From: Lachnospiraceae bacterium UBA3802
Lineage (GTDB): Bacteria; Bacillota; Clostridia; Lachnospirales; Lachnospiraceae
DNA: 11,863 nucleotides
Assembly (NCBI GenBank): GCA_002369155.1
Contig: DFEM01000128.1
Coordinates: forward strand, 1-11,863
Direction of reading: 5' to 3'
The notes beneath the pieces are model-generated. The model was not told the DNA's origin. It saw only the letters and a program-made list of their open reading frames with translations, and made no database searches. Every line of letters begins with the position of its first letter. The first letter of the stretch is position 1. A program made the position numbers and the translations under genes. Positions 4,997-11,863 of this stretch are shown here, piece after piece.

Positions 4997-7276
4997 ATGA
5001 TAATGAGTCGGATATGCGACAAATCTGATAATATTTGGAAAAACAAATATGTCGTGATTTTTAATGTTGTTACCGGCCTGATTTTTATCATGCTTTTTAT
5101 ATTGTCTGTTTTGCCGGCAAAAAAATACGACTTTAACGGAAATACATTTATAGCAGCAGGCGAAGCGGCCGACAATCTTGCGATTTACGGCGATATAACT
5201 CTTAATCCGGGTGTATACAGGGTTTTGCTGGACTATGAGACAGAAAACGATGAAGAAGCTTATGTAACGGTTAAGGACGGTACGGTAATTACCGGAGGTC
5301 TTTTGACGAATTATGAGCATTTTTACAAAGACAACGGCCGGACGGATTTTGAAATGTGGCTCTTTGAAAAAGGAGAACATATAGAAGTTTGTGTGAATTC
5401 TACAGGCAAAGGATCTGTAAGTACCGGAAATTTAACTTTCATAAAAACCAATCGTTTATATACGATGGCAATTACAATCCTTGTATTTTTATATCTTTTG
5501 GGAATGGGTATTTTTACATTTCTTTATAAAGATAAAAAAGGACTTATAGCCAAAGAATCAAAGCAGGTTGCATTGGTTCTTTTCGTTATTTTCTTTTTTG
5601 CTTCCCTTCCGTATCTTTACGGTTTCAATATTTCGGGAGCGGATCTTACTTACCATCTTCAAAGAATTGAAGGAGTAAAAGACGGTATTCTTGCAGGGCT
5701 TTTCCCAGTGAGACTCGAGCCGAAATGGCTCTATGATTTAGGCTATGCCGATGCCGTGTTTTACTGCAATCTCTTTTTGATTTTCCCTGCATTTTTGAGG
5801 ATTATGGGATTTCCCGTAAGCTTTTCGTATAATTGTTATTCAATAGCTGTCAATCTGGCTACCGTTCTTATTTCGTATTTCTGTTTTAAGAATATGTTTA
5901 AGAGCAAAAGAATCGGCGTTATCTGTTCGGGCTTGTATACTTTATCGGTATTCAGAATTTACAAACTTGTGATAACCTCTGCAGTGGGGGAGGGAACTTC
6001 ATTTACATTTCTTCCTCTCATTCTTTACGGTTTTTACCTTTTGCTTGCAAAAGAAAAAGAAGAGATTAAGAAAAACGCATGGATACCGATAACGATCGGC
6101 CTTGCGGGAATACTTCAGTCTCATGTTTTAACCTGCGAAATAACAGCATTTGTTATTTTGTTTATTTGTATTCTTTACATTAACAGGGTATTTATTCCAA
6201 AAATCTTTTTTAAACTTTTAAAAGCTGCTTTTATGACTCTGTTTGTATGTCTCTGGTTTGTGGTTCCTTTTCTTGATTATTATCTGACTCAGGATGTTCA
6301 TATCAAGCATGTATCTGCAAGAACCATTCAAAGCAGCGGACTTGAACTTTCGCATTTATTGTTTAATTTCTGGACATCGGGAACACATACCGCTTCGGAC
6401 GGTGCAGGCCTTTATTCTTCACATCCGATAGGCATAGGATTTGTTCTGGTGCTTTTTGCTTTTGTTTTTGCAATTCTTTTGTTTACGGGGAAAATTAAAA
6501 ATAATATCGAGAACAGATTTTTTAAGACTGTTTTCCTGCTTGGAATTGTTTTGATGATAATGAGTTTAAACATATTCCCGTGGGACATGCTTCAGTCTTT
6601 GCATCCCGTTCTTGCCTCGCTTATAAGTTCGCTTCAGTTTCCAAACAGGTTTCTTGGATGGGGAACGCTTTGCATGGTAATTGTTGCCGGATATGATTTA
6701 TCTTTCTTTATGAAGAAGAATGAAAAAGTTCATATCGCAATGATTATCGCAATATGTCTTTTTACGGTTACTTCGGGATTAAGACTCACTGATTACGCCG
6801 TGTACACTTCCAACCAGTATGAACTTTACAATGCAGCCTCGATGGGATACGGATATATTTCAGGAGCGGAATATCTTCTTGAAAGTACGGATTATGAAGA
6901 ATTGACATATATGAAAGCCAAATGCGGCGAAAACATTCAGATTAATGATTATAAAAAGAAAGCGCTCGGCGCTGATTTTGTATGCATAAATTCTTCGGAT
7001 GAAAACGGATACATCGATCTGCCTTTGCTTTTATACAAAGGTTATAAGGCTTTGGATACGGATAAAAAGACTGAACTGATGATTATTGAAGGCGAGAACG
7101 GTCTTGTAAGAATTATTATACCTGCAAATTATGAAGGACATATCAAAGTATCATTTGTAAGTCCTCTTTATTGGCGTGCTGCAGAGATATTCAGTTTAAT
7201 CGCATATCTTGCTCTTTTTGCCTCATGTTTTAAAAAGGGAAGGAGGGAAAAATGCAAAAATCAGGAAAAGTGTTAA
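4997..7276 (+). CDS. putative GT-C fold membrane glycosyltransferase (YfhO / PTPS-related family-like)
   Basis: A 759-residue polytopic membrane protein. After TM1 (about 18-40) comes an extracytoplasmic beta-rich domain (about 43-152, with LNPGVYRV), then many helices. From 214 the sequence GADLTYHLQR, then FPVRLEPKW (236-244) and GYADAVFY (249-256), match the first outer loop of GT-C type enzymes, where an Asp (here D216) is the presumed catalytic base. GEG at 331-333 is also typical. The C-terminal part has LPLLLYKGYKA (about 675-684), a beta domain and a last helix, like YfhO-type proteins. Known: such proteins transfer sugars from lipid-linked donors outside the membrane, in B. subtilis YfhO onto lipoteichoic acid. 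Donor and acceptor here are unknown. ATG5003 fits GGGAG (4989-4993) at 9 bases better than ATG4997 at 3, so the protein may start MSRIC. It overlaps the next gene by 25 bases. Confidence 0.75.
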   Translation: MIMSRICDKSDNIWKNKYVVIFNVVTGLIFIMLFILSVLPAKKYDFNGNTFIAAGEAADNLAIYGDITLNPGVYRVLLDYETENDEEAYVTVKDGTVITGGLLTNYEHFYKDNGRTDFEMWLFEKGEHIEVCVNSTGKGSVSTGNLTFIKTNRLYTMAITILVFLYLLGMGIFTFLYKDKKGLIAKESKQVALVLFVIFFFASLPYLYGFNISGADLTYHLQRIEGVKDGILAGLFPVRLEPKWLYDLGYADAVFYCNLFLIFPAFLRIMGFPVSFSYNCYSIAVNLATVLISYFCFKNMFKSKRIGVICSGLYTLSVFRIYKLVITSAVGEGTSFTFLPLILYGFYLLLAKEKEEIKKNAWIPITIGLAGILQSHVLTCEITAFVILFICILYINRVFIPKIFFKLLKAAFMTLFVCLWFVVPFLDYYLTQDVHIKHVSARTIQSSGLELSHLLFNFWTSGTHTASDGAGLYSSHPIGIGFVLVLFAFVFAILLFTGKIKNNIENRFFKTVFLLGIVLMIMSLNIFPWDMLQSLHPVLASLISSLQFPNRFLGWGTLCMVIVAGYDLSFFMKKNEKVHIAMIIAICLFTVTSGLRLTDYAVYTSNQYELYNAASMGYGYISGAEYLLESTDYEELTYMKAKCGENIQINDYKKKALGADFVCINSSDENGYIDLPLLLYKGYKALDTDKKTELMIIEGENGLVRIIIPANYEGHIKVSFVSPLYWRAAEIFSLIAYLALFASCFKKGRREKCKNQEKC

Positions 7277-8352
7277 TTGCATTATTGCTTCCTCAGGTTC
7301 TGATACTCCTTCTTTTGTTTGCATTAAGTTTTAAGAAAGAAAACTTGTTGATTTCTTTTGGCGATGCAGAAGCAACGGATAACGAAGAATCGGCTATTTC
7401 TTTGTTTGAGGAAAACGAAGTTTTGTTAACACCCGGTGTATACAAAGTTGAAGTATATTTTAAGGATGAGGTGCCAAATGATTCCGGCGTTCAGATTGTT
7501 GCAAAAGATGATATTTATCACAGTCTCTTAAGCAATATGGTTCCTGTTTTTCCGCAGGATAAGTACATTGAGTTCAATGTATGGGCTGCGAAAAAATGCA
7601 TGGCCCGCCCCAAGGTTGTTTCGGGAAAAGAAAATTACAATCCCGTTCTTTATATGAATATTATCAAAACTTCCAAGGGATTTTTTGTCATTGCAAGCAT
7701 TCTTTTTGGGGTGTTTTTTGTAATTGACGCGCTTATTGTTTTACGAATTAAGATTTTAAACAATGAGCTTTCAAAAAAGAAGCAGATTGTATTTGCTGCA
7801 ATGCTTTCGGCGATTATTCTGGCTTTTTTTCCGCTTCTTTCGGGATACTGTTATCTTGGCAGCGAAGGAAGATTTATTTTCTTCCCCGTGTTTTTGCTTC
7901 ACGCCGGACTGCCTTTTTATGCGGTATATAAGATATATGTATTTATGCTGCTTTTATTCAGTGCTCTGACTTCTTATTATTGCATGAGATTTTGCTTTAA
8001 GGATGAAGTTTTTGCAATGATTTTAAGTGTTGTATATCTGCTTTTCCCTTATCATCTTTACAGCATATATGACAAGGGGGCAATGGAAGAGGGGCTTTTG
8101 TACATATTCCTTCCGTTTGTATTTATGATTGTATATTTACTGATTGAAAAGCTCTTTATTAAAAAGAAACTTTCCATAAAGAACATTTGGGTTAATTCTT
8201 CCAAATATTTGAAGGCATTGCTTATAGGCGCTTTGCTCTTATATGTTTTAATTGCGATTTACAAGGTTAACAGTTTTGCATTTGAACACAGAGCGGTGTA
8301 TCTGTATGATGCTGTAAACTCTTTTAAAGTGTACGCATTTTTTGAGAAATAA
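7252..8352 (+). CDS. GT-C-like membrane protein, N-terminal-half paralogue lacking the catalytic loop
   Basis: A 366-residue membrane protein resembling the first half of the upstream 759-aa protein. It has TM1 (about 8-26), then a beta-rich outer domain (about 30-140) with LTPGVYKVEVYF (59-70), mirroring LNPGVYRVLLDY. It continues with helices including FFPVFLLHAGLPF (210-222) and SYYCMRFCF (241-249), which align with LIFPAFLRIMGFP and SYFCFKNMF of its neighbour. Between these parts about 45 residues are missing, including the whole Asp/His/Arg loop and GYADAVFY, so glycosyltransfer as in the neighbour is unlikely. EEGLLYIFLP (279-288) is retained. It ends soon after the next helix. AGGAGG at 7241-7246, 5 bases before ATG7252, and the 25-base overlap suggest coupled translation. 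It could be a partner subunit or a decaying duplicate; the open frame and good ribosome site argue for an expressed gene. Confidence 0.7.
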   Translation: MQKSGKVLIALLLPQVLILLLLFALSFKKENLLISFGDAEATDNEESAISLFEENEVLLTPGVYKVEVYFKDEVPNDSGVQIVAKDDIYHSLLSNMVPVFPQDKYIEFNVWAAKKCMARPKVVSGKENYNPVLYMNIIKTSKGFFVIASILFGVFFVIDALIVLRIKILNNELSKKKQIVFAAMLSAIILAFFPLLSGYCYLGSEGRFIFFPVFLLHAGLPFYAVYKIYVFMLLLFSALTSYYCMRFCFKDEVFAMILSVVYLLFPYHLYSIYDKGAMEEGLLYIFLPFVFMIVYLLIEKLFIKKKLSIKNIWVNSSKYLKALLIGALLLYVLIAIYKVNSFAFEHRAVYLYDAVNSFKVYAFFEK

Positions 8353-8367
8353 AAGTCGGAGATAAAG

Positions 8368-9450
8368 ATGAAAGTTAAGAAGCTTAATGAAAAAAGCTTT
8401 TTTACAATTCTATATGTTTTGCTTGGGATTATTCTTTTAATACCGCTTTTTTCGAAAGATTTAACTCTTATCGAAAAAGGTGTTATGTTCTTTTCCCAGT
8501 ACGTTTCTTTTTTTGCTTCAATTCTTTTCTTTAAAGAATTGTTTAAGGACGAAGATGAATACAAGACGTTTTTTGGAGTGCTTCTTATTGCCGTGAGCCC
8601 TTACCGATTCTTTATATGTTTTTCCGAGAAAGAAAAGCTCACGGCTCTTGCGGTATCATTAATACCGTTATATGCATTCTTTGTTTTAAAAGCGATAAAG
8701 AATGTGAAAATAAAAATCGTGTTTTGCATACTTGCGGGAATCGCGCTTGCTTTAATCGGAATGCTTCATTTTCCGATACTTACTGTTTTGACATTTGTGA
8801 GTATAACTTTGGTATTTGTTTATAAGGCTCCTTTAGTGCTTCTTACGATTGCGTTGGGATTTGGATTAAGCATTCCTTTTTGGCTTGACACGGTTAAATA
8901 TCTTCTTTTCGGAGGGTTTGAAGAATTAAATTATTCTTGTGCTTCGATAATGCCGTACGGATATCGATTCGGAAGTTATTTTAATACCTTTATGAATATT
9001 GATTCCAACCCGGGATTCGGTATAGGATTGATTGTCTGTCTGTTGGCAGGTGTATGGAATACAATCTCTGACAGGAAAAAAGTGCGGAGTAAAACCGATT
9101 ATTATATTTTTATTATGGGAATCCTGTTTATGCTTACGGCATCAAAAAAATTCCCCTGGGAATATGTTCAAAGAATTGCCTCACCGCTTTTAAGATATGT
9201 GGGAATTTGGAGAACGCCGACATTTTTTGCCGGGTTGGCCGGATTTTTCTTATCGGTTATCGGAGCAAAGGCAATCGGCAGTTTGGGTCACAGGAATGAG
9301 CATAATGCAAATGCTGAAGAAGGCAAGGAAAAAAAGAATCTGTCTTCAAATGACAATAACGATAATGCAGCATTTGATGTTTATGAATTGGTAAAGAATG
9401 TTGTGATATTTATATGTATGGGAATATACATATTGCAAAGCTATTTATGA
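8368..9450 (+). CDS. GT-C-like membrane protein, middle-region paralogue
   Basis: A 360-residue polytopic membrane protein resembling the middle (about 285-600) of the 759-aa protein. Shared landmarks are FFKELF with VSPYRFFICFSEKEKLTALAVSLIPLYAFF (77-106), aligning with SVFRIYKLVITSAVGEGTSFTFLPLILYGF. GMLHFPILT (131-139) matches LQSHVLT, FPWEYVQRIASPLLRYVGIWRTPTFFAG matches FPWDMLQSLHPVLASLISSLQFPNRFLG, and NPGFGIG matches SHPIGIG. It lacks the N-terminal beta domain, the catalytic loop and the C-terminal beta domain. Near the end a hydrophilic Asn/Glu/Lys-rich linker (about 302-337) precedes a last helix. GGAG about 7 bases before ATG8368 and a 15-base gap to the previous stop indicate a true operon member. 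The function is not known; it may pair with the preceding half-protein. Confidence 0.7.
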   Translation: MKVKKLNEKSFFTILYVLLGIILLIPLFSKDLTLIEKGVMFFSQYVSFFASILFFKELFKDEDEYKTFFGVLLIAVSPYRFFICFSEKEKLTALAVSLIPLYAFFVLKAIKNVKIKIVFCILAGIALALIGMLHFPILTVLTFVSITLVFVYKAPLVLLTIALGFGLSIPFWLDTVKYLLFGGFEELNYSCASIMPYGYRFGSYFNTFMNIDSNPGFGIGLIVCLLAGVWNTISDRKKVRSKTDYYIFIMGILFMLTASKKFPWEYVQRIASPLLRYVGIWRTPTFFAGLAGFFLSVIGAKAIGSLGHRNEHNANAEEGKEKKNLSSNDNNDNAAFDVYELVKNVVIFICMGIYILQSYL

Positions 9451-9562: not shown

Positions 9563-10924
9563 CTAAGGCGTGAGATGTGAAGGACCTCTGAAGAGGAACA
9601 TTGCTTCTTTAATGGAAAGTCCGAGAAGAAGCATGGTGAGACGATCGATTCCCAAACCGAATCCACCGTGAGGAGGACATCCGTATTTGAAGAATTCAAG
9701 ATAGAACTTAACGTCTTCGGTAAGTCCCTTTTCGTCAGCCTGTGCTTTCAATACATCGTATCTGTGTTCACGCTGAGCACCTGTGGTAATCTCTACGCCG
9801 CGCCAGATAAGGTCATATCCCTGAGGCACGCCTTTTTCGTCACGCATATGATAGAAGGCTCTCTTTTCGGCACTGTAATCTGTGATAAATAAGAATTCGT
9901 GGTTGTAATGCTTCTTAACCCACTGATAACTTAACTTTTCTGCATCTGTTGTAAGATCTCCTTTTTCGGAATCGGGAACCGTATATCCGTATTCTTTTTC
10001 AAGCGCATCATAAAGATCTGCGAGCTTTACTCTGGGGAAAGGAGTCTCGGGAATGATAATCTCGGCATCGAATTCTTCGGTAGAGAAGAGCTCTTTGATC
10101 TTATCGCCGTATTTTTCCTTAACTTTTGTGAGAGCGTATTTAATGAGGTTTTCCTCCATCTTCATAACGTCTTCACAACCGTTTATATAACTGAATTCAA
10201 GGTCAAAACATGTGAATTCCGTAGCATGCTTGCTGGTGAAGGATTTCTCGGCTCTGAACACGGGGCCTACTTCGAAAATCTTTTCAAATCCGGAAGCCAT
10301 TGCCATCTGTTTGTAGAACTGAGGGCTCTGTGCAAGATAAGCATTGGGAAGGTTGTAGTTGGGGAAGTAATCAAGTCTGAAAACGTCCGCGCCTGATTCA
10401 GATGCTGCTGCGATAAGCTTGGGTGTATGAATTTCAATGAAGTCTTTTTCGAGCAGGAATTCACGAAGAGCTGCTGTCAATGCTGTCTGTGCTTTGAACA
10501 TAAGCTGGTTCTGATCTGTTCTTAAATCAATCCATCTGTATTCGATTCTCTGATCGATGGATGAACGTTCAACTGCAGCTTTCTTCTTTGTTGCGGGAAT
10601 GTATTCCCTTGCGATGGGCAAAGCTGAAGCTATGGATTCGATTTCGAGAGTTGAAGGAATAATTTCAACACCGCCGAGCTTTACGAAATCGCTTAAAAGT
10701 ACAGTACCGGTAACCTTTACAACAGAATCGGGTGTAATCTTTGAAAGTGTTTCTTCCCAGTCGGGATGTTTTTCTTTCTCGATGGTTACCTGAACTTTTC
10801 CGGTAATATCTTTAAGTACAAGAAACGCCATGGCCTTGCCGTCTCTGAAATTCTCGACAAATCCGGCAAGTGATACTTCTTTATCGGCGTATTCTTTCAC
10901 ATTTTCAATGTAAATACGTTCCAT
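9563..10924 (-). CDS. aspS: aspartyl-tRNA synthetase, archaeal type (possibly non-discriminating, Asp/Asn)
   Basis: A 453-residue class II synthetase that charges tRNA with aspartate. An N-terminal OB-fold (about 15-95) binds the anticodon. The catalytic domain has motif 1 around FIEIHTPKLIAAASESGADVF (162-182), then AQSPQFYKQM (198-207). Motif 2 is FEVGPVFRAEKSFTSKH (217-233), followed by GVEITTGAQREHRYD (376-390) and motif 3 GGFGLGIDRLTMLLLG (420-435), ending RGPSHLTP. Length and the absence of the GAD insertion mark the short archaeal/eukaryotic-type AspRS rather than the roughly 590-aa bacterial type. QREHRYD favours Asp over Asn enzymes. Whether it also charges tRNA-Asn is not decidable here. 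The start at 10924 is set by AAAGAGG 8 bases upstream; a longer TTG start at 10990 falls inside the -35 box and is rejected. It converges with the membrane-protein operon and diverges from the HD-GYP gene. Confidence 0.93.
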   Translation of the reverse strand: MERIYIENVKEYADKEVSLAGFVENFRDGKAMAFLVLKDITGKVQVTIEKEKHPDWEETLSKITPDSVVKVTGTVLLSDFVKLGGVEIIPSTLEIESIASALPIAREYIPATKKKAAVERSSIDQRIEYRWIDLRTDQNQLMFKAQTALTAALREFLLEKDFIEIHTPKLIAAASESGADVFRLDYFPNYNLPNAYLAQSPQFYKQMAMASGFEKIFEVGPVFRAEKSFTSKHATEFTCFDLEFSYINGCEDVMKMEENLIKYALTKVKEKYGDKIKELFSTEEFDAEIIIPETPFPRVKLADLYDALEKEYGYTVPDSEKGDLTTDAEKLSYQWVKKHYNHEFLFITDYSAEKRAFYHMRDEKGVPQGYDLIWRGVEITTGAQREHRYDVLKAQADEKGLTEDVKFYLEFFKYGCPPHGGFGLGIDRLTMLLLGLSIKEAMFLFRGPSHLTP

Positions 10925-10961
10925 TAAAAGACCTCTTTTCAACAAAATTTTTACCTTTAAT

Positions 10962-10990
10962 AGTGTAAAACCTGGAGTAGTAAAAGTCAA
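10962..10990 (-). promoter_or_regulatory. aspS promoter
   Basis: On the minus strand TTGACT (10990-10985), 17-base spacer, TACACT (10967-10962). Matches to sigma-A consensus are 5/6 and 4/6 with ideal spacing. The leader to ATG10924 is about 30 bases, too short for a T-box, so no tRNA-sensing control is visible. Confidence 0.7.
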
Positions 10991-11068: not shown

Positions 11069-11128
11069 ATCTATGTATATGCGAGATGGATTTGTTTTTG
11101 TTATTTAGTATTCTGGAAGGGGAAACTG

Positions 11129-11863
11129 ATGATAGGTAACAAAAAAACAGCATCTATAGTAAGTCTGGTTTTAATTTTTTTAATAGCATCAGGTTTTATC
11201 TTACTTATAATCAGGGTTCATACGATTCCTGATATTTCTTGCATACAGTCTGAAGATACACAACATCCCGAAGAAAATGATCTTTATATGGAAATGCCGA
11301 TTTCGAATGAATGGAACGATTCGGGATATAAAGCAACTCAATATGCGGCTACTTTGAAAAACAATACACTCAATTCATTGAAGGACTGGTCTGTAATCGT
11401 AAAACTCCCTCCCAATGCCATTATTTCCGATTCTTGGAATATCAATATTGAGAGCAATGAGTACGGATCATACGTCATTACAAATGATTCGGAGCAGGGA
11501 TACAATGATACCATAGATCCAAACGGTGAGATAACATTCGGCTTTATTTTGTTTACTAATGAAGACCATTATGAAATAAATCATTTTATTTTAAAGGCTT
11601 CGCCCTTGGCAAAAATCTCCGATTATCCCTTGTTTTACATTCTGTGTGCATTGATTATACTTCTTCTTATTTACGTTTCAATGAATGTTGCAATGTTTAT
11701 AAGAGACCGTCAGTATAAGATAAGACGGGAACTTGATAAAAAAATTATCATCCAGTCGATGAAAACATTCACAAATTTCATCGATGCCAAGGACCCTTAT
11801 ACAAGAGGCCATTCGATTCGTGTGGCATTCTATACGAAGAAGATTGCCGAAAAAATGGGCTTT
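11129..11863 (+). CDS. membrane HD-GYP domain protein with CBM2-like outer domain (3' end outside window)
   Basis: The first 245 residues are in the window; the frame is open to the right edge. TM1 lies at about 8-28 and TM2 at about 167-190, so residues 30-165 face outside. This part reads like a family 2 carbohydrate-binding module: W62, an N-N-T-x-N-S-L-K-D-W core (78-87), DSWN (101-104), YNDTIDPNG (125-133) and FGF (137-139), in the order seen in cellulose-binding CBM2 domains. After TM2 a basic linker (191-210) leads into MKTFTNFIDAKDPYTRGHSIRVAFYTKKIAEKMG (211-244), the start of an HD-GYP domain with first metal His H228. Known: HD-GYP proteins mostly hydrolyse cyclic-di-GMP; the HD and GYP motifs themselves are outside the window, so activity is inferred. 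GGAAGGGG (11117-11124 region) is well placed before ATG11129. It is divergent from aspS, with its own promoter. Confidence 0.82.
   Translation, partial: MIGNKKTASIVSLVLIFLIASGFILLIIRVHTIPDISCIQSEDTQHPEENDLYMEMPISNEWNDSGYKATQYAATLKNNTLNSLKDWSVIVKLPPNAIISDSWNINIESNEYGSYVITNDSEQGYNDTIDPNGEITFGFILFTNEDHYEINHFILKASPLAKISDYPLFYILCALIILLLIYVSMNVAMFIRDRQYKIRRELDKKIIIQSMKTFTNFIDAKDPYTRGHSIRVAFYTKKIAEKMGF

Follow-up and report, generated by a model that had tools for sequence, protein, structure and literature searches.

A candidate polysaccharide-sensing receptor in Lachnospiraceae that joins a CBM2-type ectodomain to an HD-GYP enzyme

To our knowledge, the sensing of solid substrates is poorly understood, and bacteria that attach to fibre must know when they are in contact with a plant wall. 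Among the closest described systems, the RsgI anti-sigma factors of Clostridium thermocellum carry CBM, PA14 or GH10 ectodomains and are proposed to sense polysaccharides (PMC4711584). A 2022 review of cyclic di-GMP (c-di-GMP) inputs describes a predicted carbohydrate-sensing role for the 7TMR-DISMED2 domain on c-di-GMP proteins, and links soluble sugars to c-di-GMP through the phosphotransferase system protein EIIA (PMC8846402). Here we analyze the last gene on an 11,863-nucleotide stretch of DNA from Lachnospiraceae bacterium UBA3802 (the window, which is the entire contig G000:C101 of a 2.28-Mb genome that is 80.7% complete). This gene encodes a predicted membrane protein with a carbohydrate-binding module of family 2 (CBM2) outside the cell and the start of an HD-GYP phosphodiesterase inside it. 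We consider it fairly probable that the protein is a one-component transmembrane receptor in which contact with plant-wall polysaccharide modulates c-di-GMP hydrolysis by the HD-GYP enzyme; the glycan-sensing mechanism is likely.

The gene starts with ATG and stays open for 245 codons, at which point the contig ends. Its best homologue, P0001, is 98% identical across all 245 residues and has a full length of 401 amino acids. A search returned 138 homologues at E ≤ 1e-3 and, among the matches listed, 115 of 120 have a precomputed PF00553 (CBM2) annotation and 119 of 120 have HD families. Since so many homologues exist and nearly all of those listed carry both annotations, the architecture is not due to chance. 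Overall, the architecture (CBM2, transmembrane (TM) helix, HD-GYP) is near certain. An assembly artefact as the source of the fusion was ruled out, as the same architecture occurs on many independent contigs.

An earlier interpretation of this DNA made without database searches (the sequence-only reading) had placed a CBM2-like ectodomain between two membrane helices, directly ahead of an HD-GYP start, and all three elements of that description were borne out. The Pfam search matched CBM_2 at residues 57–141 with 30.6 bits against a gathering cut-off of 24 (32.5 bits in the genome search, where the receptor is the sole CBM2 match at E ≤ 0.001), with CBM49 barely over its cut-off (23.5 vs 23.4), and the predicted structure of the window protein contains a helix at residues 2–31, strands at 36–160 that form a CBM2 beta-sandwich in the model, and a second helix at 167–221. 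By score and predicted fold, the module is a CBM2 member. The conserved Trp and Asn, YN...I.P.G and FGF elements on which the sequence-only reading relied are present as W62, W87, W103, N78, Y125-N126...I129-D-P-N-G133 and F137-G-F139. Hydropathy computed on P0001 peaks at residues ∼8–31 and 167–191, in agreement with the modeled helices; residues 30–166 of P0001 are acidic (22 D/E, 7 K/R) and residues 190–206 contain 7 K/R, so a topology in which the intervening loop lies outside fits. A small ectodomain held directly between two membrane helices would also suit a module that acts as a tether and not as a switch, keeping the phosphodiesterase at the site of fibre contact and lowering c-di-GMP locally while its catalytic rate stays unchanged, and CBMs on enzymes are mainly anchors. 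However, a tether would not require the single helix that runs unbroken from TM helix 2 into the HD-GYP domain, an arrangement that is common in signalling proteins, and we regard tethering as improbable.

We aligned 65 rows, consisting of the window and 64 selected homologues down to 26% identity, in which W62, Q71, N78, W87, W103, F137 and G138 are invariant (65/65). By profile alignment and residue counts, W62, W103 and Y125 form an aromatic triad at putative binding-face positions (Table 1), with the equivalence of W62 taken from the Clostridium cellulovorans EngD module because the alignment with the C. fimi module (1exg) begins past this residue. We take W87 to be a core position of CBM2, and the cellulose-binding face of the C. 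fimi CBM2 to consist of three exposed Trp (W17, W54 and W72). Control CBM2s borne on glycoside hydrolase family 5 (GH5) enzymes of the same genus and order have W, W and Y/F at these positions in all 22 unique rows (their GH5 assignment is by Pfam scan for 14, by a PF00150 match on the same contig stretch for 5, and by sequence motif only for L008, L010 and L019). The receptor and the GH5-linked modules thus have a conserved aromatic set in common, at a face that is putative and placed by alignment.

Outside this alignment, a wider set of 33 unique sensor rows has W at position 103 in 33/33, W at position 62 in 29/33 and Y/F at position 125 in 25/33. Within the genus, the receptor was found in 19 of 25 genomes by a Pfam CBM2 search alone, which could miss diverged copies. 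The window's sequence group covers 9 genomes with 58–69% identity to P0001 (the window itself aside) and keeps W, W and Y/F in 9/9, and a second sequence group covers 10 genomes with about 38–43% identity to P0001 and keeps W103 in 10/10 and W62 in 9/10, the tenth copy being truncated. As aligned, the full triad is solid in the group of the window, but other receptors do not all have it. The triad positions persist in an ectodomain that diverges faster than the enzyme (median identity to P0001 of 34% for the ectodomain vs 65%). This fast divergence, together with low CBM2 scores across the receptors (18.6 to 38.4 bits, and no match at E ≤ 0.001 in L061), would fit if the CBM2 fold were a relic spacer without a ligand and the HD-GYP enzyme were constitutive or driven by another input, but a relic would not be expected to hold W62 and the other six residues invariant down to 26% identity, and we consider this explanation very unlikely indeed.

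The enzyme part is of the HD-GYP type, as judged from the completed homologue. The HD-GYP start in the window is real because P0001 continues past it into HD_5 (PF13487, 129.5 bits) and HD (PF01966, 83.8 bits). P0001 contains H228, R231, H260, D261, K264, H289, H313, H314, E315, G321-Y322-P323, D342, R351 and R354, and 42 full-length rows, chosen from the 120 listed homologues to cover their range, have all of these HD, metal-binding and GYP residues without exception. In the window's own copy, only GHSIRV (H228, R231) is visible before the contig ends at residue 245. In a profile alignment with PDB 4mcw, the receptor has a Tyr at the Glu of the ETQNH segment, which would make a three-metal site like that of 4mcw less likely and a two-metal site possibly likelier. 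Since the window's genome has 35 GGDEF matches, c-di-GMP is the first-choice substrate, and we infer that it, rather than cyclic GMP-AMP (cGAMP), is hydrolyzed.

Table 1. Features of the receptor gene in the window
Feature	Coordinates	Strand	Basis
Ribosome-binding-site-like GGAAGGGG	11115..11122	+	6 nt before ATG, read from sequence
CBM2 / HD-GYP membrane receptor gene	11129..11863	+	245 amino acids, open at contig end
TM helix 1 (~residues 8-31), N-terminus inside	11150..11221	+	P0001 hydropathy; model helix 2-31
Extracytoplasmic CBM2-fold beta-sandwich (residues 52-160)	11282..11608	+	Pfam CBM_2 at 11297-11551; model
W62, putative binding-face aromatic 1	11312..11314	+	W 65/65; profile-aligned to EngD CBM2 Trp
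W87, conserved CBM2 Trp	11387..11389	+	W 65/65; profile alignment
W103, putative binding-face aromatic 2	11435..11437	+	W 65/65; aligned to Trp in EngD and C. fimi CBM2
Y125, putative binding-face aromatic 3	11501..11503	+	Y 40, F 19 of 65; aligned to EngD Tyr, C. fimi CBM2 Trp
TM helix 2 unbroken into cytoplasmic helix (residues 167-221)	11627..11791	+	Model and hydropathy
HD-GYP domain start (from residue 213), including GHSIRV, H228 at 11810-11812	11765..11863	+	Pfam HD_5 213-378 in P0001; alignment

Computation shows the fold, the topology, the conserved aromatic positions and the completed homologue's HD-GYP motif residues; beyond this, we infer ligand binding, signal transmission, its direction and the outputs. 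The CBM2-type module, outside the cytoplasmic membrane, would bind insoluble or polymeric beta-linked plant cell wall polysaccharide, with a cellulose-like glucan as the first choice and xylan, mixed-linkage glucan or chitin as possible ligands. Contact with the polysaccharide would alter how TM helix 2 and its unbroken cytoplasmic extension pack, and hence the activity of the HD-GYP phosphodiesterase, presumably a dimer, whose c-di-GMP hydrolysis would change on binding. Our guess is that contact lowers phosphodiesterase activity and raises c-di-GMP. F. succinogenes, an unrelated bacterium, has ∼2.5 times higher c-di-GMP on cellulose than it has on glucose (PMC6851124); inhibition by contact would fit if the same logic held for the receptor. 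Fibre contact would be tied to adhesin and pilin expression, and possibly to motility in flagellated members. If true, the receptor would serve fibre-attaching bacteria as a substrate-touch sensor, and the literature searched showed no c-di-GMP input of this kind; if binding alters c-di-GMP hydrolysis, insoluble polysaccharide would join the direct inputs to this messenger. The receptor family also offers a single-protein hypothesis with a defined enzymatic readout and two obvious mutants, W62 and W103. More tentatively, we suggest a broader picture in which a receptor family common in Lachnospiraceae uses a cellulase-type module to feel solid plant-wall polysaccharide and a second-messenger signal to control adhesins and pilins.

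The sequence-only reading had proposed that glycan binding outside the cell controls c-di-GMP breakdown inside, as a motile/sessile switch. Of this reading, the CBM2 fold, the aromatics, the outside-in topology and the HD-GYP motifs (in the homologue) are supported, glycan binding and its effect on hydrolysis are predictions, and the motile/sessile wording is weakened. The window's genome has two flagellin-family matches and one PilZ match. However, among 16 genus genomes searched for flagellin, the receptor is present in 6 of 8 with a match and 7 of 8 without one, so flagella cannot be the sole output, and a flagellar switch as the conserved output was rejected for lack of any association, with absence of the receptor judged by the Pfam CBM2 search. 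Riboswitches of the c-di-GMP-I class point elsewhere: 62 matches were listed in relatives, covering 25 of 41 genomes, and 47 of these lie in 17 genus genomes. We fetched 20 of the 47 sites (L114–L133). The first gene past the riboswitch encodes a Flg_new-repeat surface protein at 9 of the 20 (8/9 of these with LysM or DUF4214), a pilin-like N_methyl protein at 2/20 (and the second gene does so at one further site), a DUF4214 protein at 1/20, an EAL protein at 1/20 and a protein of another or no family at 4/20, with 3/20 unscanned. As genes for surface repeat proteins and pilins lie behind c-di-GMP riboswitches in these relatives, adhesion is a better candidate output than flagella, and the Flg_new/LysM/DUF4214 surface proteins and pilins are a candidate c-di-GMP adhesion regulon. 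A search for c-di-GMP-II riboswitches gave zero matches, and its controls were likewise silent.

Beyond the genus, the ectodomain profile matches 97 of 392 genomes in the order, a count that takes in GH5 enzymes and further CBM2 proteins as well as receptors. The 30 order loci fetched (L052–L081) comprise the window, 15 HD-GYP receptors (L053–L058, L060–L066, L068 and L073; six by Pfam and nine by motif), 11 GH5 enzymes and 3 other CBM2 proteins. Across the phylum, 13 of 398 genomes match, and among the 13 newly fetched loci the HD-GYP motif occurs only in L142; the window and these 16 receptors all belong to one family, the window's f1 (for the fetched loci, weaker matches aside). A search with residues 20–215 of the Butyrivibrio protein P0118 returned 95 matches, with HD families in 94, the exception being P0134 of 237 amino acids, so the CBM2/HD-GYP pairing is a stable architecture. 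No swap of the ectodomain onto other output domains was seen among these 95 matches, for which the query extends through the linker helix as far as the HD domain, favouring HD-GYP proteins, and candidates were limited to 0.55–1.75 times the query length. Precomputed PF00553 is present in 42 of the 95 and absent from 53; relatives that bear it include Butyrivibrio sp. MC2021, VCB2006 and XB500-5, and the B. proteoclasticus B316 match (P0168) is without it. In a tree of 70 ectodomains, built on few columns, separating sensors from GH5 CBM2s needs 2 label changes, thus one or two origins. A genome-contig search with one protein gave three loci that match in the HD-GYP part only. Two other kinds of CBM2 protein were noticed during these searches: a subtilase-family protein with two CBM2 matches, an unusual pairing (L029:1231-3087, G003), and, outside the order, secreted-looking proteins of ∼315 amino acids with a C-terminal CBM2-like domain and an N-terminal part of no assigned identity (L139:1456-2400 on the minus strand, L140:919-1872, and L141:1435-2379 on the minus strand).

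In the window, the receptor gene is preceded by a class II tRNA synthetase gene (D, K and N type) at 9563-10990 on the minus strand. Positions 4997-9450 encode consecutive hydrophobic-looking proteins of 759, 366 and 360 amino acids that have no Pfam match at E ≤ 0.001 and no cluster partner in the 18 loci compared. Among the neighbour genes scanned, families include FecR, HSP70, DnaJ, DUF5684, K+ channel, TrkH, TrkA, MscL and MCP, as well as Na+/H+ antiporter, hydrogenase maturation, ABC transporters and others. Those nearest to carbohydrate are a weak Glucodextran_B match in L037 (19.6 bits, cut-off 27) and a heparan-glucosaminide acetyltransferase-type membrane protein in L038. The neighbourhood was rejected as a clue to the ligand, as no glycoside hydrolase or polysaccharide lyase scores above cut-off in the neighbours scanned (34 proteins in 12 loci, plus the other 8 genes of the window). 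Directly upstream of the L037 orthologue (G009), a CHASE2 receptor with an adenylate/guanylate cyclase domain is encoded at 5980-7809. No Rfam family reached its gathering score in the window, and the surroundings of the L038 sensor likewise gave no credible element.

Some of these neighbours bear on a different ligand. In L034, L039, L040, L041 and L042, the gene of a FecR-cluster protein begins 23–30 nucleotides downstream of the receptor orthologue (Pfam identifies FecR in L039, L041 and a cluster member in L037; the other three are assigned by clustering). The two genes probably share an operon, and the FecR-domain protein could be a partner of the receptor. The L041 copy, of 609 amino acids, has by eye an N-terminal membrane helix, an acidic low-complexity stretch and Cys-rich repeats, and looks membrane-anchored. 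In G010, the receptor orthologue is followed by genes for two large surface proteins. Of these, the first resembles the riboswitch-linked proteins in having Flg_new and DUF4214, and the second clusters with the first; Rfam found no riboswitch at this locus. Together with the lack of glycoside hydrolases among the neighbours scanned and the absence of the third aromatic from some members, these genes would suit a CBM2-fold module whose ligand is a protein partner, or material of the cell's own envelope or matrix (peptidoglycan, teichoic acid, capsule or exopolysaccharide), so that the state of the wall or biofilm, and not plant fibre, is what it signals. However, the aromatic set equals that of the GH5-linked CBM2s, which is less expected of a protein interface, and the window's genome has no match to cellulose synthase (TIGR03030). 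We judge a ligand of this kind to be unlikely, though by no means negligible. Own bacterial cellulose in particular is weakened as a candidate, as the TIGR03030 search of 25 genomes gave one strong match (376 bits, below cut-off), in G015, where no sensor was found, and none in the window's incomplete genome.

Returning to the plant-wall reading, several observations weigh against it. GH5-CBM2 enzymes occur in 10 of 25 genus genomes, of which 2 are without the sensor; they are found in 8 of 10 genomes of the second group and in none of the 9 that have the window's orthologue, and in the window's genome neither of two GH5 matches has a CBM2 match. Cellulose itself is therefore uncertain as the ligand. 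The third aromatic is gone in 6 of 65 aligned rows and missing in 8/33 rows of the wider set, and in the second group it is kept in 6/10, with Asn in the other 4/10; position 62 is non-Trp in 4/33 wider-set rows, 1 of them from a truncated gene. The low CBM2 scores, with no match at E ≤ 0.001 in L061, and the lack of hydrolases and lyases among the neighbours scanned point the same way. On the enzyme side, GYP is replaced by GYM or GYS in L061 and L068, two relatives outside the 42-row set, so their activity may differ, and the top PDB profile match is 5z7c, a 3'3'-cGAMP phosphodiesterase (231 bits), followed by 4mcw (165.9 bits). On the output side, the receptor is kept in relatives with no flagellin match, and the search for c-di-GMP-I riboswitches found none in the genome of the window (80.7% complete). 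Ligand binding and catalysis are predictions from sequence and a model.

With respect to known systems, the receptor module resembles the CBM2s of secreted cellulases and chitinases (EngD, 3ndy; C. fimi exoglucanase/xylanase, 1exg and 6qfs) in its fold, its conserved Trp and its W/W/(Y or W) positions, at about 16–23% identity to the EngD and C. fimi modules. Those modules belong to secreted hydrolases, whereas this one is flanked by two membrane helices and attached to a cytoplasmic signalling enzyme. The enzyme part resembles HD-GYP phosphodiesterases (4mcw; 5z7c, 3'3'-cGAMP phosphodiesterase 3) in the HD, metal-binding and GYP motifs of the completed homologue and family, and differs from 4mcw in having a Tyr where 4mcw has the Glu of its ETQNH segment. 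We know of no HD-GYP phosphodiesterase with a CBM ectodomain. Pfam families above cut-off in the receptor are of CBM and HD types only, and sources name these proteins HD, HDIG or HD-GYP domain proteins, or hypothetical proteins. No description of the CBM2 and HD-GYP combination was found in searches of the open-licence PMC literature; the main text of PMC8846402 has no occurrence of CBM, chitin or glycan, and the pairing may stand in its domain tables. The likeness to 7TMR-DISMED2 is that of a carbohydrate-sensing domain on a c-di-GMP protein, with a CBM2 here in place of the predicted jellyroll of a seven-TM class. RsgI is the nearest functional parallel, as it too is a single membrane-crossing protein with a carbohydrate-binding module outside. 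However, the receptor's TM helix starts within the first 10 residues, so that an N-terminal cytoplasmic anti-sigma domain of the RsgI type is absent, and where RsgI acts on sigma-I transcription control, the receptor's predicted output is a second-messenger hydrolase and its module a CBM2 between two TM helices.
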